A DNA stretch of 64,000 nt from Nocardioides panacis. Its GTDB lineage: Bacteria > Actinomycetota > Actinomycetes > Propionibacteriales > Nocardioidaceae. Both the position numbers and the translations under genes were made by a program. The DNA lies in NCBI RefSeq assembly GCF_019039255.1, contig NZ_CP077062.1, positions 3,286,001 through 3,350,000 on the forward strand, given 5' to 3'. Below the pieces are notes generated by a model. It was given only the letters and a program-made list of their open reading frames with translations. It was not told the origin of the DNA and searched no databases. Shown piece after piece: positions 29,783 through 43,600 of this stretch; the stretch's first letter is position 1; each line of letters starts with the position of its first letter.

Positions 29783-31159
29783 ATGGCCATTGCGACGACT
29801 GACCCCAGGACCGGACAGGTCCTCACCACCTTCGACGAGCTCACCGACGACCAGCTCGAGGACCGGCTGGCGCGCGCCGCTGCGGCCGCCGACTCCTACC
29901 GGCTGACCACCCACGAGCAGCGTGCCGGGTGGCTGCGGAGCGCCGCCGACATCCTCGACAAGCGCACCGAGGAGGTCGCCGAGCTGATGACGCTCGAGAT
30001 GGGCAAGACCAAGAAGGCGTCGGTCGCCGAGATCGGCAAGTGCGCGGCGGTGCTGCGCTACTACGCCGACAACGCGGCCGGCTTCCTGGCCGACGAGGAG
30101 GTCGACGCGGCGAGCGTGAACGCCTCCAAGGCCTACGCCCACTACCTGCCGATCGGGGTGGTGCTGGCGATCATGCCGTGGAACTTCCCGCTCTGGCAGG
30201 CGATGCGGTTCGCGGCCCCGGCGCTGGCCGCCGGCAACGTCGGGCTGCTCAAGCACGCCAGCAACGTGCCGCAGACCGCGCTGTTCATGGAGGAGCTGTT
30301 CCGCGACGCGGGCTTCCCCGACGACGCGTTCCAGACCCTGCTGATCGGCAGCGGCAAGGTCGACGCCGTGCTCCGCGACGACCGGGTCGCCGCCGCGACG
30401 CTGACCGGCAGCGAGGCCGCCGGGGTCGCCGTCGCGCGGACCGCCGGCGAGGTGCTCAAGAAGGTCGTCCTCGAGCTCGGCGGGTCCGACCCGTTCGTGG
30501 TGATGCCGTCGGCCGACCTGGCCGCCGCGGCGAAGGTCGCCACCACCTCGCGCTGCCAGAACAACGGCCAGTCCTGCATCTCGGCCAAGCGGTTCATCGT
30601 GCACACCGACGTGTACGACGAGTTCGTGGAGCTGTTCGCCAAGGAGATGGCCGCGCTCGTCGTCGGCGACCCGATGGAGGACGGCACCGACGTGGGGCCG
30701 CTGGCCAACGAGCAGGGCCGCGAGGACGTCGAGGCGCTGGTCAAGGACGCCGTCGACAAGGGCGCGACCGTGCTGGTCGGCGGCGAGCGCCCGGACCGGG
30801 ACGGCTGGTGGTTCCCGCCCACGCTGGTCGCCGACGTCACCGAGGAGATGGACATGTACCTCGAGGAGGTCTTCGGCCCGGTCGCCCAGGTGCACCGCGC
30901 CACCGACATCGAGGACGCGGTCCGGATCGCCAACGTGACCCGCTTCGGGCTCGGCTCCAACGCCTGGACCAACGACCCCGAGGAGCAGGCGGTGTTCGTC
31001 CGCGACCTCGCCGCCGGCCAGACCTTCATCAACGGGATGGTCGCGTCGTTCCCGGCGCTCCCGTTCGGCGGCGTCAAGGCCTCCGGTCACGGGCGCGAGC
31101 TGGCCGCGCACGGCATCCGCGAGTTCACCAACATCAAGACGGTCTGGGTCGGCAAGTAG
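29783..31159 (+). CDS. NAD(P)-dependent aldehyde dehydrogenase (succinate-semialdehyde type)
   Basis: A 458-residue aldehyde dehydrogenase. Key features: IMPWNFPLWQAMRF (cofactor/oxyanion Asn), GSEAAGVAVAR, the general base Glu in LELGGSDPF, and the nucleophile Cys265 in NNGQSCISAKRF. Overall it looks like GabD-type succinate-semialdehyde dehydrogenases. It starts at ATG 29783, divergent from glgX. An alternative role as the missing BoxD (semialdehyde step of the box pathway) is possible because the box genes begin about 1.4 kb away, but the gene is on the other strand and not in that operon. Confidence 0.9.
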   Translation: MAIATTDPRTGQVLTTFDELTDDQLEDRLARAAAAADSYRLTTHEQRAGWLRSAADILDKRTEEVAELMTLEMGKTKKASVAEIGKCAAVLRYYADNAAGFLADEEVDAASVNASKAYAHYLPIGVVLAIMPWNFPLWQAMRFAAPALAAGNVGLLKHASNVPQTALFMEELFRDAGFPDDAFQTLLIGSGKVDAVLRDDRVAAATLTGSEAAGVAVARTAGEVLKKVVLELGGSDPFVVMPSADLAAAAKVATTSRCQNNGQSCISAKRFIVHTDVYDEFVELFAKEMAALVVGDPMEDGTDVGPLANEQGREDVEALVKDAVDKGATVLVGGERPDRDGWWFPPTLVADVTEEMDMYLEEVFGPVAQVHRATDIEDAVRIANVTRFGLGSNAWTNDPEEQAVFVRDLAAGQTFINGMVASFPALPFGGVKASGHGRELAAHGIREFTNIKTVWVGK

Positions 31160-31189
31160 ACCCGCGCGGCGTGCGGGCGGGTCGGCCGG

Positions 31190-31789: not shown

Positions 31790-32577
31790 TCAGGTGCGGG
31801 GGCCGCCGGCGACGTACAGGACCTGGCCGCTGACGAAGCCGGACCTCGGCGAGCAGAAGAACGACACCGCGTCCGCGACGTCCTCGGGGCGGCCGGGCCG
31901 GCGCACCGGGATGCCGGCGACCCGGGCGGCGCTGAACTCCTCGAAGGTCTGGCCGACCCGCTCGGCGGTCGCCCGGGTCATCTCGGTGACGATGAAGCCC
32001 GGCGCCACCGCGTTGCAGGTGACGCCGTACCGGCCGAGCTCGTGCGCGACCGTCTTGGTGAAGCCCTGCAGGCCGGCCTTGGCGGCGGCGTAGTTGGCCT
32101 GGCCGCGGTTGCCGAGCGCGGAGGTCGAGGAGAGGTTCACCACCCGCCCGTACGACGCCGCCGTCATGTGCTTCTGCGCGGCGCGGGTCATCAGGAAGGT
32201 GCCGCGCAGGTGCACCTGCATCACCGTGTCCCAGTCGTCGGCCGACATCTTGAACAGCAGGTTGTCGCGCAGCACCCCGGCGTTGTTGACCAGCACCGTC
32301 GGCGCGCCGAGCCGCTCGCGACCTCGCCGACGACCCGGTCCACCGCCGCCTCGTCGCTGACGTCCGCGCCGAACGCCGCGGCCGGGACGCCGCGGTCGGC
32401 CAGCCGGTCGGCGGTGCCCCGCGCGGCGGGCTCGTCGATGTCGAGGCAGGCGACCGCCATCCCGTCGGCGCCGAGCCGCTCGGCGATCGCGGCGCCGATG
32501 CCGCGGCCGGCCCCCGTGACGATCGCGACGACCTGGGCGGGCGGGGGGTACGTGGCGTCAGCAGTCTCAGCAGTCAT
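31790..32577 (-). CDS. SDR family oxidoreductase, FabG-like (apparent frameshift)
   Basis: About 262 residues after correction. The N-terminal part has the cofactor loop VTGAGRGIGAAIAERLGADG; the C-terminal part has VLVNNAGVLRDNLLFKM, the Ser region VVNLSSTSALGNRGQ and Tyr/Lys N-Y-A-A-A-K, ending in SGQVLYVAGGPRT. The frames join near 32317, where one base is missing: GTCGCGAGCGGCTC should encode V-A-E-R-L. It resembles 3-oxoacyl-ACP/CoA reductases. It lies 11 bp downstream of the DUF6158-like gene, so it may be the last gene of the box operon and act on a CoA ester. Confidence 0.83.
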
Positions 32578-32588
32578 GGGGGGTCTTT

Positions 32589-33023
32589 CTACCGGCCGAG
32601 CCGGGCGCGACCGGCGTCGGTGACCACCCGGTCCTGCTTGTCGGTGGCGAGCAGCTGCGGCTCGGCGGTGTAGAGCCGGGCCAGCTGGGCGCGCTCGAGC
32701 CCGACCGACCGGGCGATCTGGTGCACCTCGAGCTTGTGCATCCGGCCGCCGGGGGCGTCGGCCACGGCCTGCAGCAGCGCGACCACCGGGTCGTCGGCGG
32801 CGACGACAGGCGGCTCGCCCTCGACGCCCTGCCAGGTGCGCTTGGGGAAGCGGTGGAGGTACTCCTGCTCCAGCTCGAGCATCCGCCGGGTGTGGGTGTC
32901 GAACTGCGCGGCGCTGCCGTGCAGGAACACCCAGTTGCGGCTGTCGTGCAGCTGCTTGCCCTGGGTCTCGAGCTCCTCGTCGGTGAGCTCGGCGGCCGGC
33001 CGGCCGGTGGGCACCTCAGTCAT
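32589..33023 (-). CDS. DUF6158-like protein in the box operon
   Basis: A 144-residue soluble protein of unknown function. It opens MTEVPTGRPAAELTDEELET and contains QLHDSRNWVFLHGSAAQFDTHT and LELEQEYLHRFPKRTW, followed by a helical C-terminus with a winged-helix look (KLEVHQIARSVGLERAQLARLY). I recall this pattern as DUF6158, moderately sure. ATG 33023 follows AGGAGG; it overlaps the stop of the amidohydrolase gene by 8 bp. Its place in the box operon suggests a role in benzoyl-CoA oxidation or its control. Confidence 0.72.
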   Translation of the reverse strand: MTEVPTGRPAAELTDEELETQGKQLHDSRNWVFLHGSAAQFDTHTRRMLELEQEYLHRFPKRTWQGVEGEPPVVAADDPVVALLQAVADAPGGRMHKLEVHQIARSVGLERAQLARLYTAEPQLLATDKQDRVVTDAGRARLGR

Positions 33024-33903
33024 CCTCAACCTCCTGGGAGTGGTCGGCCGTGAGGCCGCTGTAGACGGCGGTGGCGTTGCCCCCGAGGACGGCGGCCACG
33101 GTCGCCTCGTCCAGCCCGAGACCGGCCACCGCGCGGGCGTTCTGCGCGGTGCCCGGCACGCCCGGCCAGTCGGTGGCGAAGATCCACCTGCGGGCCAGCC
33201 GGGCCAGGTCGAAGTTGCGGTAGTACTCCGGCAGCCGCTTGGGCGGCAGGCCGGACAGCTCGATCCAGACCGTCGGGTTGGACAGCGCCATGAACGCGGC
33301 CGCGTCGTACCACCAGCCGCGCCCGCCGTGCGCGAGCACCACGTCCAGGGTCGGGAAGTCCCGCACCACCGGCAGGAGGTACGCCGGGTCGGCGAGCTCG
33401 TTCATCGAGCCGGGGAAGGTGCTGGTGCCGCAGTGCACGACCAGGGGGACGCCGCGCTCGGCGAGCACCTGGTAGGCCGGGTAGAGCATCGCGTCGTCGC
33501 AGCGGAAGCCGCCGTGCACCGGGTGCAGCTTGAGCGCCGCCGCGCCGAGGTCGAGCTGGCGCCGTACCTCGTCGCCGATCGGGAAGTGCAGGTGCGGGTT
33601 GACGTTGGCGACCGGCCGGAAGCGCACGGGGTTGTGCTCGACGATCGGCAGCAGGTCGTCGAAGCGCTGGTAGCCGGTGGCCTTCGGGGAGTACTCGCAG
33701 AACAACAGCGCGTGGTCGACGCCCTGCTCCTCGAAGAGCGTGTCGAGCCGGTCCGGGCGGGGCACGCCGTCGGCGTCCCAGAGGTCCTCGAGGATGCCGT
33801 CGGGCCCGAAGTCGCGGGCCCAGTCGAGCCAGGCGGGCGCCAGCGAGCCGAGCACCGGCACGTGCACGTGCGCGTCGACGAGCAGGTGGCCGTCGAGGGT
33901 CAT
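33016..33903 (-). CDS. Amidohydrolase family protein (amidohydrolase 2, ACMSD-like)
   Basis: A 295-residue TIM-barrel metal hydrolase or decarboxylase. Seen are the HxH metal motif DAHVHVPVLGS near residue 11, AALKLHPVHGGFRCDD, the VVHCGTSTFPGS strand with His, VVLAHGGRGWW, and the C-terminal IFATDWPGVPG with the catalytic Asp. It sits between the ferredoxin gene (4-base overlap) and the DUF6158-like gene (8-base overlap), so it is firmly in the benzoate operon. Its substrate in the pathway is unknown; it is not one of the core Box enzymes. Confidence 0.87.
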   Translation of the reverse strand: MTLDGHLLVDAHVHVPVLGSLAPAWLDWARDFGPDGILEDLWDADGVPRPDRLDTLFEEQGVDHALLFCEYSPKATGYQRFDDLLPIVEHNPVRFRPVANVNPHLHFPIGDEVRRQLDLGAAALKLHPVHGGFRCDDAMLYPAYQVLAERGVPLVVHCGTSTFPGSMNELADPAYLLPVVRDFPTLDVVLAHGGRGWWYDAAAFMALSNPTVWIELSGLPPKRLPEYYRNFDLARLARRWIFATDWPGVPGTAQNARAVAGLGLDEATVAAVLGGNATAVYSGLTADHSQEVEDD

Positions 33904-34232
33904 GACCAGGCCTGCACCAGCGGGGTGTCGGCGCCGAGCTCGCCGACCTTGCGGGCGCCGCCCGGCGCGCCGAGCGGCTCGTCGCGGCCGGGCAGCACCT
34001 CGGTGAAGAACGCCCGGTTGTCCTCGACGAACGCCTCGTCGCCCTCGGCGACCCGGCGGTCCTGGCTGATCGCCTCGACCGGGCAGACCGGCTCGCAGGC
34101 GCCGCAGTCGATGCACTCCTTGGGGTTGATGTAGCTCTTGCGGTCCCCCTCGTAGATGCAGTCGACCGGGCACTCCTCGACGCAGGACTTGTCGTTCACG
34201 TCGATGCAGGCGCTGGCGATGACGTAGGGCAC
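33900..34232 (-). CDS. 7Fe-type ferredoxin (FdxA-like)
   Basis: A 110-residue ferredoxin with an actinobacterial seven-iron pattern: CIDVNDKSCVEECPVDCIYE for the first cluster and CIDCGACEPVCPVEAI for the second. The C-terminal half (FVEDNRAFFTEVLPGRDEPLG) is like FdxA. It overlaps the amidohydrolase gene by 4 bases and follows the reductase gene by 27 bp. In this operon it probably carries electrons from the reductase to the BoxB epoxidase. Confidence 0.93.
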   Translation of the reverse strand: MPYVIASACIDVNDKSCVEECPVDCIYEGDRKSYINPKECIDCGACEPVCPVEAISQDRRVAEGDEAFVEDNRAFFTEVLPGRDEPLGAPGGARKVGELGADTPLVQAWS

Positions 34233-34259: not shown

Positions 34260-35262
34260 TCAGGCGGGGACGGGTACGTCGTGGGGCAGGTCGGTGGAGT
34301 GCCCGGGGAACACCGGGGCGTCGGGGTCGAGGTGCACGGCGGCGTTGTTCACGGCGGTCGCGACCTCGCCGAAGCCGACGGAGATCAGCCGGACCTTGCC
34401 GTCGTACTCGGTGATGTCGCCGGCAGCGAAGACGCCCGGCAGGTTGGTGCGCATGGCCGAGTCGACCACGAGGTGCCGGTTGTCGCGCAGCTCGACACCC
34501 CAGTCGCGCATCGGTCCGAGGTTCGCGGTGAACCCCAGCGCCGCGACGGCCCGCTGGCACGGCACGACGAGCGGGTCCTCGCCCTTGACGGTGATCTCGG
34601 CCTGCTCCAGGAGGTCGCCCCCCCGCGAGCCCGGTCACCTGCGCGTTGACGATCATCCGTACGTCGGAGGCGCGGACCTGCTCGACGCTGGCGCTGTGTG
34701 CGCGGAACGCCTCGCGCCGGTGCACCAGCGTGACGCTGGACGCGAGCGGCTCGAGCATCAGCGCCCAGTCCAGGGCGCTGTCGCCCCCGCCGACCACGAC
34801 CACGTCGCGGCCGACGTACTCCTGGCTGCTGGGCACGAAGTACTCCAGCCCGCGGCCGAGGAACTCCTCGCCGGCCGGGAGCGGCCGCGGCGTGAAGGTG
34901 CCGATGCCGCCGGTGACGACCAGCGCGCCGCAGGTGACCTCGGTGCCCGCGCTGGTGGTGACGTGCAGCCGGCCGTCGGCGAGGGTGCGCAGCTGCTGGG
35001 CCTCCTGGCCGAGGAGGTACGTCGGACCCTGCGCGGCGGCCTGCGCGACGAGCCCGCGGACCAGGTCGCGCCCGGAGATCGCCGGGAAGCCGGCCACGTC
35101 GTAGATCTGCTTCTCGGGGTACATCGCGGTGACCTGGCCGCCGACCTCGGACAGCGAGTCGACGACGGCGACGGACAGCCCGCGGACGCCCGCGTAGTAG
35201 GCGCCGTAGAGCCCCACCGGTCCGGCCCCCACGATCAGCAGGTCGACCTCGCGCGTGCTCAC
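34260..35262 (-). CDS. TrxR-like ferredoxin-NADP+ reductase (apparent frameshift)
   Basis: An FAD protein of about 333 residues once corrected. FAD site: [25 protein letters not shown] site: [17 protein letters not shown]-terminus: [20 protein letters not shown]. There is no thioredoxin-reductase CxxC, which fits the YumC-type ferredoxin-NADP+ reductases. The frame breaks at seven C (34618-34624); with six, [19 protein letters not shown] is continuous. GTG 35262 overlaps the TGA of the ligase gene (GTGA). It very likely reduces the adjacent ferredoxin. Confidence 0.87.
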
Positions 35263-36854
35263 GGGGCCACCTCGAGCTCGTCGGTCTGCGCCGGCGCCGG
35301 CTCGGCGGCGGGGTCGCCGCCGACGAGGTCGCGGACCTTGAAGCGCTGGAGCTTGCCGGTGGCGGTCTTCGGCAGGTCGCTGACGAACACCACCTTGCGG
35401 GGCGCCTTGAAGTGCGCCAGCCCGTCGCGGCACCAGGCGACCAGGTCGGCCTCGTGCAGGTCGGTCCCGGGTGCCACCACCACGACCGCGATCGGCTTGT
35501 CGAGGCCGTCGGCGTCGGGCACCCCGACCACCGCCGCCTCGCGCACCTCCGGGTGCTCCAGCAGCCGGCTCTCCACCTCGCCGGGCGAGACCCAGATGCC
35601 GCCGGCCTTGAGCATGTCGCTGTTGCGGCCCAGGCAGGTGTAGTAGCCCTCCGCGTTGCGGACGTAGGTGTCGCCGGTGACCAGCCACTCGCCCTGGAAC
35701 ACCTGACGGGAGGCGTCCGTGCGGTGCCAGTAGCCGAGCGCGATGGACTCGCCGCGCACGTGCAGCGCCCCGGGTTCGTCGTCGGGGACCAGCCGGCCCG
35801 CGGCGTCGCGGACCTCGACGTCGTAGCCCGGGACGGGCCGGCCGGTCGTGCCCGGACGGATGTCTCCAGGCCGGTTGGACAAGAAGATGTGCAGCGCCTC
35901 CGTCGAGCCGATGCCGTCGAGGATCTCCACCCCGAACCGGTCGGTGAAGCGGCGCTGCAGCGGGGCCGGCAGCGGCTCCCCCGCCGAGGCGCACATCCGC
36001 ACCGACGAGAACGCCTCGGCCGGCACGTCGCTGGCGGTCAGCGCGGCGTAGAACGTGGGCACCCCGAAGAACAGCGTCGGCCGGGCGCCCTCCAGCCGCT
36101 CGCGTACGACGTCCGGGCTCGGCCGACGGGGCTCCAGGACGGTCGAGGCGCCCACCGAGAGCGGGAAGAACACCGTGTTGCCGATGCCGTAGGCGAAGAA
36201 CATCTTGGCGACCGAGAACGTGGTGTCGTCGGGGGTGATGGCCAGCACCTGGGCGCCGTACGTCTCGCAGACGTGCCGGATGTTGGCGTGCCGGTGCATC
36301 GCCGCCTTGGGCAGCCCGGTCGTGCCGGAGGTGTAGAGCCACAGCGCCCACGAGTCGTCGACGGTCGGGGCGATGCTGCCGTCGCCGTCGCGCCCGAGCG
36401 CCGTCAGCTCGGCCCACGAGTGCCCGGCGACCCGGTCCGGCAGCACCAGGCGTCCCTCCCCCGCCAGCACGGCGTGCTCCACGTCCGGCGCGGCGGCGAC
36501 CGCCTCGCCGACGGCGCCGGCGAACTCCGGGGTGGCCAGCACGACCCGCGCGCCGGAGTCGGCCATGATCTTGCCGAGCTCCGCGCCGGTGAACATCGTG
36601 GAGACCGGCACCGCGACCAGCCCGGCCCGGAACGCGCCCAGGATCCCGGTGAGCATCGGGACCTCGTCGCTCATCACCAGCATCACCCGGTCGTCGCGGC
36701 GCAGGCCGAGCCCGCGCAGGCCGGCGGCGGCGACCGCGGTGCGCTCGTCCAGGTCGGCGTAGGTCAGCGTCTCCGACGCGATCACCGCCGTGCGGTCGCC
36801 GGACCCGCTGGTGACGTGCCGGGAGACGAGGTACTCCGCCGCGTTGAACCCCAT
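35259..36854 (-). CDS. Benzoate-CoA ligase
   Basis: Activates benzoate to benzoyl-CoA with ATP, the entry step of the box pathway. The 531-residue product is an ANL-family enzyme. AMP-binding motif LYTSGTTGLPKAAMH sits near residue 175; DGIGSTEALHIFLSNRPGDI is characteristic of benzoate-type ligases; YTCLGRNSDMLKAGGIWVSP and the C-terminal KTATGKLQRFK with the catalytic Lys follow. The start is ATG 36854 (MGFNAAEYLVSRH), 5 bp after the boxC stop. The reductase gene overlaps its stop. Confidence 0.9.
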   Translation of the reverse strand: MGFNAAEYLVSRHVTSGSGDRTAVIASETLTYADLDERTAVAAAGLRGLGLRRDDRVMLVMSDEVPMLTGILGAFRAGLVAVPVSTMFTGAELGKIMADSGARVVLATPEFAGAVGEAVAAAPDVEHAVLAGEGRLVLPDRVAGHSWAELTALGRDGDGSIAPTVDDSWALWLYTSGTTGLPKAAMHRHANIRHVCETYGAQVLAITPDDTTFSVAKMFFAYGIGNTVFFPLSVGASTVLEPRRPSPDVVRERLEGARPTLFFGVPTFYAALTASDVPAEAFSSVRMCASAGEPLPAPLQRRFTDRFGVEILDGIGSTEALHIFLSNRPGDIRPGTTGRPVPGYDVEVRDAAGRLVPDDEPGALHVRGESIALGYWHRTDASRQVFQGEWLVTGDTYVRNAEGYYTCLGRNSDMLKAGGIWVSPGEVESRLLEHPEVREAAVVGVPDADGLDKPIAVVVVAPGTDLHEADLVAWCRDGLAHFKAPRKVVFVSDLPKTATGKLQRFKVRDLVGGDPAAEPAPAQTDELEVAP

Positions 36855-36859
36855 CGCGC

Positions 36860-38563
36860 TCACACCCGCTGGTAGCTGTAGCTGCCGCGCTGCCCGGAGC
36901 CGTAGCGCCGCAGCGCCCCCTCCGGTCCCGACGCGTTCGGCCGGATGAAGATCCAGTTCTGCCAGGCGGTCAGCCGCCCGAAGATCTTGGTCTCCATCGT
37001 CTCGGGGCCGACGAACCGGTGGTTGGCCTCCATGCCGGTCAGCGCGTCGGGCGAGAGCGAGGCCCGCTCCTCCAGCACGATCCGGATCTCGTCCTCGAAG
37101 TCGATGTCGTCCAGCGCCATCGTGACCAGGCCGGCGGAGTCCGCGGCCTGCGCGTCGAGCCGCTCGCCGGCGTGCGTGCGGGCGTTCTCGACCTGGTCGT
37201 CGTGGCCCCAGAACCGGGACTCCACGCGGGACAGCTCGTTGCCCATCGGGAAGCGCCCGTCGTTGCTGGCGGTGAGCACCAGGACGGCCGGCTCCGCGTC
37301 CGGGTCCACGTCCTCGTAGACGCCCTCGAGCATGTACTGCCGGTCGCAGGCCAGCGCGAGCTCGAGCAGGAACCCGGCGAAGCAGCTGCCCGGCTCGATC
37401 ACGGCGACCAGGCTGCGGCTGGTGACGTCGAGCCGCTTGAGGGTGCGCTTGAGGTACTGCGTCGTCTCGTGCACGAACCAGTCCCCGGCCAGGTCGCCGA
37501 GCTGCGCGTCGTACGCCAGCACGCGGTCGACGTCGCCGCGGGTGCGCAGCACCCAGGTGCCGAGCTCCTGCTCGTTGGTGCGCAGCCGCAGCACCAGGTC
37601 GTCGAGGGCCCGGGTGACCGCGAACGGCCACCAGTCCACGCCCTGCGCCAGCACGGCGGCCGCGTCGCCCGGCGGTTCCTCGGCGGGGCCGTGCACGGTG
37701 ATCTCGACCCGCCGGTCGGTCCGGGAGAGCTCGGCGGTGACGAACGGGTAGCTGATCGTGTCGCCGTCCTCGGTCCGGTCCAGCGGGGTCAGCGTGATGC
37801 CCTCGCCGGGGCGCCGGGACGAGGCGTCGGCGGCCTCCCGGGCCCGGCGCGCGATCTCCTCGTCCCAGCCCTGCCGGGCGACCGTGCCGTCGACGAGCCC
37901 CCACTCGACGGCGGTGGCCCCCCGGTAGCCCTCGGACTTGGTGGCGAACAGGTCGGCCCGGTCCTTGCGGACGTGCCGCTTGTCGACCACCCGGGTCAGG
38001 CCGCCGGTGCCGGGCAGCACGCCGAGCAGCGGGACCTCCGGGAGCGAGACGGTCGAGGCGCCGTCGTCGATCAGCACGATCTCGTCGCAGGCCAGCGCCA
38101 GCTCGTAGCCGCCGCCGGCCGCGGTGCCGTTGAGCGCGGCGATCCAGGTCTGCCCGGACGTGTCGTGCGCGTCCTCGATGGTGTTGCGGGTCTCGTTGGT
38201 GAACTTGCAGAAGTTCACCTTCCAGGCGTGGCTGGACTGCGCGAGCATCCGGATGTTCGCGCCGGCGCAGAACATCTTCTCCAGGCCGCCGGTCATCACG
38301 ACCGCCTTGACCCCGGGGTGCTCGAAGCGCAGCCGCTGCACGGCGTCGTACAGCTCGATGTCGACGCCGAGGTCGTAGGAGTTCATCTTCAGCGCGTAGC
38401 CCTCGACCAGTCCGGCGTCCTCGTCGACCTTCAGGGTCACCGTCGCGACGTCGCCGTCGACGTCGAGCCGCCAGTGCCGGTAGCGGTCGGGGGCGGTGTC
38501 GAAGTCGACCACCGGGATCGCGGGGGCCTGCTGGTCGGCTTCCGGGGTGTCCAGAACAGTCAC
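36860..38563 (-). CDS. boxC: 2,3-epoxybenzoyl-CoA dihydrolase BoxC
   Basis: Cleaves 2,3-epoxybenzoyl-CoA with two waters to 3,4-dehydroadipyl-CoA semialdehyde and formate. The 567-residue protein has an N-terminal crotonase domain with FCAGANIRMLAQSSHAWKVN, FTNETRNTIED and ALNGTAAGGGYELALACDEI, typical of BoxC, and a second crotonase-like half (SLVAVIEPGSCFAGFLLELA). I start at GTG 38563, 8 bases after GGATGAGG; the frame extends to 38644 across the predicted promoter. It heads the leftward operon boxC, ligase, reductase, ferredoxin, amidohydrolase, DUF6158. Confidence 0.93.
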   Translation of the reverse strand: MTVLDTPEADQQAPAIPVVDFDTAPDRYRHWRLDVDGDVATVTLKVDEDAGLVEGYALKMNSYDLGVDIELYDAVQRLRFEHPGVKAVVMTGGLEKMFCAGANIRMLAQSSHAWKVNFCKFTNETRNTIEDAHDTSGQTWIAALNGTAAGGGYELALACDEIVLIDDGASTVSLPEVPLLGVLPGTGGLTRVVDKRHVRKDRADLFATKSEGYRGATAVEWGLVDGTVARQGWDEEIARRAREAADASSRRPGEGITLTPLDRTEDGDTISYPFVTAELSRTDRRVEITVHGPAEEPPGDAAAVLAQGVDWWPFAVTRALDDLVLRLRTNEQELGTWVLRTRGDVDRVLAYDAQLGDLAGDWFVHETTQYLKRTLKRLDVTSRSLVAVIEPGSCFAGFLLELALACDRQYMLEGVYEDVDPDAEPAVLVLTASNDGRFPMGNELSRVESRFWGHDDQVENARTHAGERLDAQAADSAGLVTMALDDIDFEDEIRIVLEERASLSPDALTGMEANHRFVGPETMETKIFGRLTAWQNWIFIRPNASGPEGALRRYGSGQRGSYSYQRV

Positions 38564-38598
38564 GGCGTGCACCTCATCCTTGGCGTGTGGTGCACAAC

Positions 38599-38641
38599 AC
38601 TCTACGCTGGACTCGAAGATCGTCAAGACTTTGTCGACTGT
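38599..38641 (-). promoter_or_regulatory. boxC promoter with shared box element
   Basis: On the minus strand -35 TTGACG (38621-38626) and -10 TAGAGT (38599-38604) are 16 bp apart and about 35-60 bp before the boxC start. The element ACAGTCGACAAAGTCTTG (38624-38641) overlaps the -35. The same element, 17 of 18 bases identical, occupies the same place before boxB. The divergent paaX gene begins 104 bp to the right, so its product is the first candidate regulator. Confidence 0.6.
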
Positions 38642-38745
38642 CATTCCCAGGGACCGGCGGCGTCCGGTGCGACAATTCGGGGCGGCCGGTCACCGGACCG
38701 GCCGACGTCGCCCGCGACCGCGTCGCCGACCGGAGAGGAGCCGCC

Positions 38746-39609
38746 GTGTCCGAGCCGAGCGTCGCCTCCTCGCGCCGCCGCGAGGTGGGCTCCGCCAGCG
38801 CCCGCTCGCTGCTGCTGACCGTGCTCGGCGAGTTCGTGCACCCGCGGCACTCCTCGGTGTGGACCGCGACCCTGCTCGAGGCACTGGGCAGCCTCGGGGT
38901 GGAGGAGAAGTCCGCCCGCCAGGCCCTCTCCCGTACGGCGAGCGAGGAGCTGCTGGTCTCCTCGCGGCACGGCCGGCGGGTGCTCTGGGAGCTCACCCCT
39001 GCCGGGGCCGAGCTGCTCGAGGAGGGCACCGCCCGGATCTACGGGTTCCTGCGGGAGCGGCACCCGTGGGACGGCCGCTGGCTGGTGCTCAGCGTGCCGA
39101 TCCCGGAGACCCAGCGGCAGCTGCGGCACCGGCTGCGCACCCGGCTGACCTGGCTCGGCCTCGGCTCGCCCACCTCCGGGCTGTGGGTCAGCCCCGACGC
39201 CACCAAGGCCCACGACGTGCACGAGGTGGTCCGGGACCTCGGGCTGGAGGCGCAGGCCTTCGCCTGGGTGGGCCCGGCCAGCGGCGTCGGCGACGAGAGC
39301 CGGCTGCTCGCCGACGCCTGGGACCTCGCCGACGTCGAGGACCGCTACCTCGGCTTCCTCGACGCGTTCGCGACCCGCGAGGCCGGCTCCCCCGCCGACG
39401 CGTTCGCCGCCCAGGTCGAGATGGTCCAGGAGTGGCGGCGCTTCCCGTTCCTCGACCCGGACCTCCCCGGCGAGCTGCTCGACCACGACTGGCCCGGGCC
39501 GCGCGCGGGCGCCGCCTTCCACGACCGGCATGCCGCCTGGCACGCCGCGGCACAGGCCGAGTGGGACCGGATGGACGGCGCGGCCGGCCCGCGGCCCTCG
39601 GCGACCTGA
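38746..39609 (+). CDS. PaaX family transcriptional regulator
   Basis: A 287-residue regulator. The N-terminal winged helix follows the PaaX pattern (SARSLLLTVLGEFV, SLGVEEKSARQALSRTASEELL), the middle has WDGRWLVLSVPIPETQRQLRHRLR, and the C-terminal part FVWVG-like AFAWVG and FLDAFATREAG. PaaX proteins repress aromatic-CoA operons and respond to the CoA ester; phenylacetyl-CoA is the classic ligand, so benzoyl-CoA is a fair guess here. GTG 38746 follows GGAGAGGAG. It is divergent from boxC. Confidence 0.88.
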   Translation: MSEPSVASSRRREVGSASARSLLLTVLGEFVHPRHSSVWTATLLEALGSLGVEEKSARQALSRTASEELLVSSRHGRRVLWELTPAGAELLEEGTARIYGFLRERHPWDGRWLVLSVPIPETQRQLRHRLRTRLTWLGLGSPTSGLWVSPDATKAHDVHEVVRDLGLEAQAFAWVGPASGVGDESRLLADAWDLADVEDRYLGFLDAFATREAGSPADAFAAQVEMVQEWRRFPFLDPDLPGELLDHDWPGPRAGAAFHDRHAAWHAAAQAEWDRMDGAAGPRPSAT

Positions 39610-41509: not shown

Positions 41510-42075
41510 TCAGTACTGGTGCTCGTCGACGTCGACGTAGCCGCCGGACTCCTCGTGACCGGGCGCGCGGTCCCCGTCGGCGGAGGGGTCGTAGGCGCGC
41601 GACGGCGCGGGCTCGGCCTTCGAGGGCCCGCCGCCCGGGGCCGGGCGCTGGTCGTCGGCCCCGACCCGCTTGCGCAGCGTGGTGTCCGTCGTGGAGCCGC
41701 GGTAGCCGCGCACCGCCAGCCAGTCGTGCACGTCGTCGCGCTGCGGGTGGGTGCCGCGGACCGTGTTGTAGACGTAGTTGAGGCCGCGTCGGGCCGCCTC
41801 GTCCTCGAGCCGGTCGAGCACGAAGGAGCCGACGCCGCGGCGCTGCGCCGTGGCGTCCACGGCGAGCAGGATCTCCGCGTCGCCGCCCCAGGTCGCGTCG
41901 AGCCAGCCGTAGCCGACGACCACGCCGTCCGCGGTGCGTGCGTCCCACCAGTCACCCGGCAGCTCGGCCCCGTCCGGGTAGGACACGTCGAGCGCCCCCG
42001 CGGGGGCCGAGCCGATCACGCGCTGCTTGTCGGCGTCCCAGGTCGGGCTCGGCTCGTGGTGCCAGGTCAGCTCGC

Positions 42076-42079
<4 letters not shown>
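41510..42079 (-). CDS. GNAT family N-acetyltransferase
   Basis: A 189-residue acetyltransferase. The acetyl-CoA loop is seen as LLAVDATAQRRGVGSFVLDRL, and the last 50 residues form a Pro/Asp-rich tail (PSKAEPAPSRAYDPSADGD). GTG 42079 overlaps the boxB stop (GTGA), so it is co-translated with BoxB. Substrate unknown; one possibility is control of CoA-pathway enzymes by acetylation, which is only a guess. Confidence 0.78.
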
Positions 42080-43569
<1,490 letters not shown>

Positions 43570-43600
43570 CACGGCTCCTGTCGATGGGGCTTCCCTCTAA

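Follow-up and report, generated by a model that had tools for sequence, protein, structure and literature searches.

The window, a 64,000-nucleotide stretch of the Nocardioides panacis genome (a single contig of 4.9 Mb), encodes a version of the box pathway for benzoate degradation (Table 1). On the minus strand the genes run in the order boxC, benzoate-CoA ligase, flavoprotein, ferredoxin, amidohydrolase (here amh), DUF6158 and short-chain dehydrogenase.

Table 1. Genes of the benzoate locus (positions in the window).
Feature	Position	Strand	Evidence and remarks
Aldehyde dehydrogenase	29784-31160	+	Flanks the operon
Short-chain dehydrogenase	31790-32577	-	Last gene of the operon, 11 bp downstream of DUF6158; in two overlapping frames, apparently by frameshift
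DUF6158 protein	32589-33023	-	144 aa, ATG to TAG; PF19655
Amidohydrolase (amh)	33016-33903	-	295 aa, ATG to TGA; PF04909; Pfam, start and stop checked
Ferredoxin (FdxA_Actino)	33900-34232	-	NF045480, 144 bits (cut-off 125)
Thioredoxin-reductase-like flavoprotein, putative ferredoxin reductase	34260-35262	-	Frameshift at ~34620
Benzoate-CoA ligase family protein	35259-36854	-	TIGR02262, 549.4 bits (cut-off 375.25)
boxC	36860-38644	-	TIGR03222, 850.8 bits (cut-off 712.3)
PaaX-like regulator	38587-39609	+	Divergent from boxC; three PaaX Pfam domains over cut-off
GNAT acetyltransferase	41510-42079	-	PF00583; directly after boxB, overlapping its end
boxB, benzoyl-CoA 2,3-epoxidase	42076-43572	-	TIGR03225, 757.5 bits (cut-off 499.1)

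The overlaps of amh with the ferredoxin gene (4 bp, 33900-33903) and of DUF6158 with amh (8 bp, 33016-33023) had been reported in a first-pass annotation of this DNA, and are exact in coordinates, strand and length. An AGGAGG sequence lies inside amh, ahead of the DUF6158 start, and third-codon-position G+C is ~98% in the amh, DUF6158 and ferredoxin genes alike. The same annotation had assigned both genes to a box operon. This holds for boxC and the ligase, which score over their cut-offs, but not for boxB. The latter is located ~3.4 kb upstream of boxC, and because other genes intervene, the PaaX-like one on the opposite strand, it falls outside the transcription unit of amh and DUF6158.

The amh, DUF6158, ferredoxin, ligase, boxC and boxB frames are open. 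The frames of the short-chain dehydrogenase and of the flavoprotein (two frames, both matched by the relative at locus L040) are broken, due to either sequencing error or decay. The FdxA-type ferredoxin and the flavoprotein probably feed electrons to BoxB. No match (E<=1e-20) was identified in the source genome to the aldehyde dehydrogenase encoded ahead of boxB in genome G142, a query only inferred to be BoxD; thus, the aldehyde dehydrogenase that flanks the operon on the opposite strand may serve the pathway.

Predicted structures of the two proteins

The amidohydrolase matches PF04909 (Amidohydro_2) over residues 9-281 with 113.9 bits (cut-off 26.4). The only NCBIfam match is unrelated and weak (E 0.15). 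In an alignment of 40 relatives from both genomic contexts described below, H12, H14, H157, H192 and D245 are invariant, as are D10, E70, H106, K125, H127 and H130. The first five (HxH...H...H...D) are presumably the metal site. Given this invariance in both contexts, the catalytic site is kept. The structure model (pLDDT 94.1) is closest to two uncharacterised proteins, 3irs (Z 27.2, rmsd 2.9, 265 aligned residues, 20% identity) and 3cjp (Z 23.2, rmsd 2.7, 230 aligned). These are followed, within a few Z units of each other, by 2,3-dihydroxybenzoate decarboxylases (Z 22.3, rmsd 3.3-3.4, 266-267 aligned), ACMSD (Z ~20-21, 17-19% identity) and the pyrone-dicarboxylate hydrolase 4i6k (Z 19.5, rmsd 3.2, 243 aligned). 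LigJ, ACMSD and LigY were also recovered in a profile search.

The PF04909-type enzymes (ACMSD, LigJ hydratase, LigY hydrolase, LigW, the dihydroxybenzoate decarboxylases and pyrone-dicarboxylate hydrolase) share with amh a TIM-barrel and the HxH...H...H...D pattern, but are only 13-20% identical to it in the structural alignments listed. Many such relatives act on aromatic rings or ring-cleavage products. The earlier label "ACMSD-like" is thus apt for the fold but too specific, as LigJ, LigY, LigW, the dihydroxybenzoate decarboxylases and pyrone-dicarboxylate hydrolase are comparably remote. Judged from the model, the fold neighbours narrow the chemistry of amh, not the reaction.

The DUF6158 protein matches PF19655 over residues 8-63 (58.2 bits, cut-off 26.8). 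Its model (pLDDT 87.7, pTM 0.52) has two predicted parts, an N-terminal helical hairpin (residues 15-58) and a C-terminal winged-helix-like domain (79-143), with a lower-confidence joint between them. Residues H26, R29, W31, H44, R47, E50, E52, E54 and Y55 of the hairpin are invariant. Alignments of the hairpin with ribosomal protein chains (Z ~7) were set aside, as they were taken to reflect a common two-helix arrangement. Searches of PDB sequences with the protein and the profile returned nothing useful, and no paper naming DUF6158 was found in a search of the open-access literature.

Co-occurrence with boxB

Among 245 genomes of the order, boxB was identified in five, and amh (E<=1e-30) in exactly those five, with 76-84% identity besides the query. 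The chance of such a match is 1.4e-10 if kinship is ignored. PF19655 matches occur in three of the five and in none of the remaining genomes of the 245. In G079, amh is ~250 kb from boxB and there is no PF19655 match; in G122 the amh alignment overruns the natural stop of a 283-aa gene.

We then consider 80 boxB loci (stretches of 3.9-21.5 kb, 56 of at least 20 kb), which are biased to close kin because they are the best 80 of 393 boxB relatives; the counts that follow apply to this set. The amh gene is present in 41 of the 80 stretches; in 26 of these, it lies no more than 25 bp from where the ferredoxin alignment ends. Its position varies: it directly precedes boxB at L073 and L082 and is some kb upstream at L081 and L087, and at other loci it mostly follows the ferredoxin gene. 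The 39 loci without amh correspond to 36 genomes searched genome-wide (L098 and L097 were left out, and L109 and L110 are contigs of one strain). Of these, 27 carry amh elsewhere, 20 copies with 74-87% identity and seven with 58-66%. The latter, one of which (G644) has an internal stop, may belong to the subgroup linked to PaaA/PaaC-type genes described below. Altogether, amh is found in 67 of 76 boxB genomes, or 68 of 77 loci, the difference arising because a single MAG contributes both L085 and L089 as contigs, and the copy matched in G655 had already been counted at L089. It was not identified in nine of the 36 genomes: Acrocarpospora, a Nocardioides MAG, Nonomuraea jiangxiensis (end fragments only), three Mycobacteriaceae, two Catenulispora and one Pseudonocardia.

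The DUF6158 gene is encoded, whole or in part (partial at L056 and L072), in 25 of the 80 stretches. Where both genes are present (18 loci), it adjoins amh or is one gene away in 13. Searches of 15 further boxB genomes, from the 55 loci without DUF6158, gave a match in 14, in nine of them <1 kb from amh and on the same strand. The match in G644 (115.8 bits) scores like the short form of the protein (below) and was not counted as box-type.

In seven of the 18 loci with both genes, the gene that separates amh from DUF6158 encodes a hexapeptide-repeat relative of PaaY and gamma carbonic anhydrases. The protein at L042 and its counterpart at L151, a boxB-less amh locus (below), score 126.8 and 144.8 bits on the PaaY model TIGR02287 (cut-off 319.6), and 132.4 and 164.6 bits on a gamma carbonic anhydrase model (cut-off 250). 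As the PaaY equivalog cut-off is not reached, we refer to them as PaaY-like.

Across a sample of 396 genomes of the phylum, including the source genome of the window (G000), boxB was identified in four. In the other three (G286, G301 and G512; boxB ~60% identical) amh was not found at E<=1e-20, and the box cluster of Mycetohabitans has neither amh nor DUF6158. Thus, amh is a trait of the actinobacterial version of the box pathway rather than of the pathway itself. The association with boxB, which the first-pass annotation had proposed as a check, proves strong within the Actinomycetes but does not extend to every boxB lineage.

DUF6158 as a family specific to the box pathway is rejected: PF19655 matches occur in 17 of the 396 phylum genomes (16 over the cut-off), and only G000 among them has boxB. 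The non-box proteins in the eight stretches read are a short form (~75-125 aa, with guessed starts) that lacks the winged helix, and hardly any of their neighbours are conserved beyond one genome pair. No match to DUF6158 was identified on plasmids.

In a tree of 67 sequences, the nearest amh belongs to a Nocardioidaceae MAG (L040). Box-linked and PaaA/C-linked sequences fall on two sides of one branch (97/91), in a tree in which the labels also follow taxonomy, nine rows are unlabelled and far outgroup rows sit on very long branches. In many Actinomycetes, co-occurrence and gene order support the view that amh and DUF6158 are part of the benzoate module. Among open-access papers, judged on titles and abstract openings, none connecting an amidohydrolase with the box pathway was found.

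The association does not extend to canonical phenylacetate degradation. PaaA is over its cut-off in all five boxB genomes of the order sample and in eight of 12 boxB-less relatives of the source genome, and none of the 12 has amh. Thus, amh is not a general enzyme of phenylacetate degradation and, unless another enzyme covers the need in those relatives, is not linked to the intermediates shared by the two pathways from dehydroadipyl-CoA onwards. A shared lower-pathway role for amh is weakened by this distribution.

Amidohydrolase genes in genomes without boxB

We identified amh with 52-61% identity in 25 of the 395 phylum-sample genomes besides G000, none of which has boxB (E<=1e-20). Sixteen of these loci (15.6-20 kb each) were read; a further locus (L156, 34% identity) was left out here and is counted among the 17 loci of the protein comparison between contexts. 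PaaA/PaaC-type gene clusters are present at 11 of the 16 loci, and a benzoate-CoA-ligase homologue at 14. At L151, the members of both clusters match PaaA_PaaC with 211.6 and 125.6 bits (cut-off 28.5) but reach only 126.2 of 280 and 83.4 of 133.35 bits on the equivalog models, and the ligase homologue exceeds the benzoate-CoA-ligase cut-off (592.1 versus 375.25 bits). PaaA-family matches are under the PaaA cut-off in all five boxB-less amh genomes that have one.

PaaY-like matches occur at 12 of the 17 loci, and no BoxC match above 36% identity was found at any of the 17. Between the two cluster types, median identity is 56% for amh, 46% for the PaaY-like protein and 41% for the ligase, so that amh is the best conserved of the proteins compared. 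Oxygenase genes were not seen at five of the 16 loci (L144, L150, L153, L155 and L158), and a genome-wide search of G309, the genome of L144, gave no PaaA-family match, with amh, ligase and PaaY-like genes present. An epoxidase is therefore not always the partner of amh. Extradiol-dioxygenase-like genes are near amh at L144 and L158.

Related genes are also carried on Thermus plasmids. The cluster on pHB5018c encodes a ligase, thiolase, amh, MaoC, PaaI-type thioesterase, dehydrogenase and alpha/beta hydrolase, with PaaA-, PaaD- and PaaC-like genes 16 kb away. A PaaA-like gene is present in all seven Thermus plasmid records with amh. The amh frame of pTF19b is open across the match, although annotated only as short hypothetical pieces. 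The alpha/beta hydrolase shares 51% identity with its counterpart in the Mycetohabitans box cluster, which suggests that the substrate of the Thermus cluster may be benzoate rather than phenylacetate. Formate-dehydrogenase-type genes lie ~11 kb from amh on one Thermus plasmid (L178:26093-28822), and would be of interest if formate is released. Loci L142-L158, L175 and L179 include clusters in which a benzoate-CoA-ligase homologue accompanies divergent PaaA/PaaC/PaaD-like proteins; these clusters possibly represent a second aerobic route of aroyl-CoA epoxidation.

Possible roles and comparison with known pathways

From these gene patterns, a hydrolase acting on a side product or a ring-opened product is the most plausible role for amh. 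We propose that it is a metal-dependent hydrolase dedicated to oxygen-dependent aroyl-CoA catabolism of the benzoyl-CoA type, with DUF6158 as a small accessory protein, most likely regulatory, and give this reading a probability of about 0.45. An aroyl-CoA 2,3-epoxide would open to a beta-formyl thioester. In BoxC chemistry, water would cleave the C-C bond of such a thioester to yield formate and a semialdehyde. The amidohydrolase may act on a product common to both oxygenases (the ring-opened beta-formyl or semialdehyde intermediate, or a shunt product), by C-C or C-O hydrolysis or, after removal of CoA by the PaaY-like protein, by decarboxylation. Trapping of carbon and CoA would thereby be avoided. 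The enzyme could perform BoxC-type cleavage where BoxC is missing, or clear leaked intermediates where BoxC is present. In a published proposal, BoxC itself catalyses two successive hydrolyses (PMC4498308, excerpt), so the BoxB route offers no obvious gap for amh. PaaY, which hydrolyses an inhibitory shunt CoA ester of the phenylacetate pathway (PMC4498308, excerpt), sets a precedent for a salvage role.

A more specific version of this proposal is that amh marks an undescribed hydrolytic step of two oxygen-dependent benzoyl-CoA routes, one with BoxB and one that lacks BoxB and has a PaaA/PaaC-type aroyl-CoA epoxidase and the ligase. In the second route (a family of the phylum, perhaps Rubrobacteraceae, and the Thermus plasmids), amh would release the formyl carbon, as BoxC does in the BoxB route. 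We regard this version as doubtful.

Replacement of the lower-pathway lactonase seems unlikely. The amidohydrolase would in that case open 3-hydroxyadipyl-CoA lactone as a non-orthologous substitute for an alpha/beta hydrolase. A lactonase is a recognised accessory of the Betaproteobacterial box gene set (PMC6449761, excerpt), the alpha/beta hydrolase is present in the Mycetohabitans cluster, none of the 80 actinobacterial boxB stretches (best 80 of 393) encodes a relative of it at E<=1e-5, and the similar folds include pyrone-dicarboxylate hydrolase (4i6k). However, the phenylacetate pathway too yields 3-hydroxyadipyl-CoA (PMC4498308, excerpt), yet none of the 12 boxB-less relatives, eight of them with canonical PaaA, has amh, and the Thermus cluster has amh together with a box-type alpha/beta hydrolase. 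The two are thus not simple alternatives in Thermus, and lactonase replacement is weakened as an explanation. Less probable still is that amh decarboxylates free shunt acids of the hydroxybenzoate type, formed from the epoxide after thioester cleavage. The 2,3-dihydroxybenzoate decarboxylases are the closest solved folds after the two uncharacterised structures, and the PaaY-like gene between amh and DUF6158 in seven of the 18 loci (best 80 of 393) fits such a sequence of steps. Against this, structural matches less than 1 Z unit apart count as ties, scores are similar for several PF04909-type functions at 13-20% identity, and no phenol- or catechol-degrading gene was noticed among the families common to the boxB stretches. 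It is very improbable that amh and DUF6158 are passengers that take no part in benzoate degradation. Some boxB genomes do lack amh and DUF6158, and G079 has neither amh close to boxB nor a PF19655 match, but the linkage survives rearrangement (amh before boxB at L073 and L082, after the ferredoxin gene at 26 other loci) and, in the order sample, amh tracks boxB even when far apart.

The DUF6158 protein is probably regulatory. The first-pass annotation had called it regulatory or structural; the regulatory part would fit the winged-helix prediction and a single fusion, in Gordonia otitidis (L080:16061-17266), where DUF6158 and GNAT form one open frame of 402 residues (DUF6158 profile 75-207, GNAT 226-402). 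DUF6158 may therefore work with the GNAT acetyltransferase encoded beside boxB. This link is only suggestive, since there is one fusion case and the 80 boxB loci (best 80 of 393) divide into 13 with both genes, 14 with GNAT alone, 12 with DUF6158 alone and 41 with neither. A GNAT protein is likewise tied to benzoate degradation in Rhodopseudomonas palustris, where BadL makes acetamidobenzoates needed for derepression of benzoate genes (PMC6191541, excerpt). DNA binding by the winged helix, with DUF6158 as the regulator of the operon, is possible, though we lean against it. The predicted domain aligns with MarR-type regulators (e.g., 7el2; Z 7.1, rmsd 2.9, 64 aligned residues), there is a weak IclR-HTH match (E=0.085), and the GNAT fusion speaks for it as well. 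On the other hand, Z ~7 is middling for so common an arrangement, and a Foldseek search returned nothing at E<=0.001. The winged-helix part has little excess of basic residues (10 K+R versus 9 D+E), and the locus already encodes a PaaX-like regulator.

The pair of amh and DUF6158 is real, conserved and mostly unexplained, and the pathway in which it occurs is a known one in variant form. With one hydrolase accompanying two oxygenase systems, an intermediate common to both is predicted and a further benzoyl-CoA route may exist; DUF6158 gains a testable context.

The box pathway has been described mainly from Proteobacteria. It is reported from Alpha- and Betaproteobacteria (PMC10803450, excerpt), and the Betaproteobacterial gene set includes a lactonase accessory, an alpha/beta hydrolase (PMC6449761, excerpt). 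As the first-pass annotation had stated, neither amh nor DUF6158 belongs to the known pathway, insofar as the gene set is given in the excerpt of PMC6449761 and in the Mycetohabitans cluster. The latter encodes the alpha/beta hydrolase, DUF4863, a helix-turn-helix regulator and boxA; relatives of its BoxA, BoxR, lactonase and DUF4863 were found in none of the 80 actinobacterial boxB stretches (best 80 of 393, E<=1e-5). The window shares BoxB, BoxC and benzoate-CoA ligase, all over curated cut-offs, with the boxABCD system of Betaproteobacteria. Unlike that system, it has a separate ferredoxin (28.1 of 459.2 bits on the BoxA model TIGR03224), the flavoprotein, amh, DUF6158, GNAT and, instead of BoxR, a PaaX-like regulator (153.2 bits on TIGR02277, under the 264.55 cut-off), and its relatives have the PaaY-like gene. 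Electron supply, regulator and accessory genes thus set the actinobacterial version apart, and amh and DUF6158 are unexplained parts of it. The PaaX-like regulator and PaaY-like protein of the actinobacterial box clusters resemble components of the phenylacetate pathway, as do the PaaA/PaaC/PaaD-like proteins adjoining amh in boxB-less genomes. However, the PaaA/PaaC-like proteins of the boxB-less genomes are far under the equivalog cut-offs and occur with a benzoate-CoA-ligase homologue.
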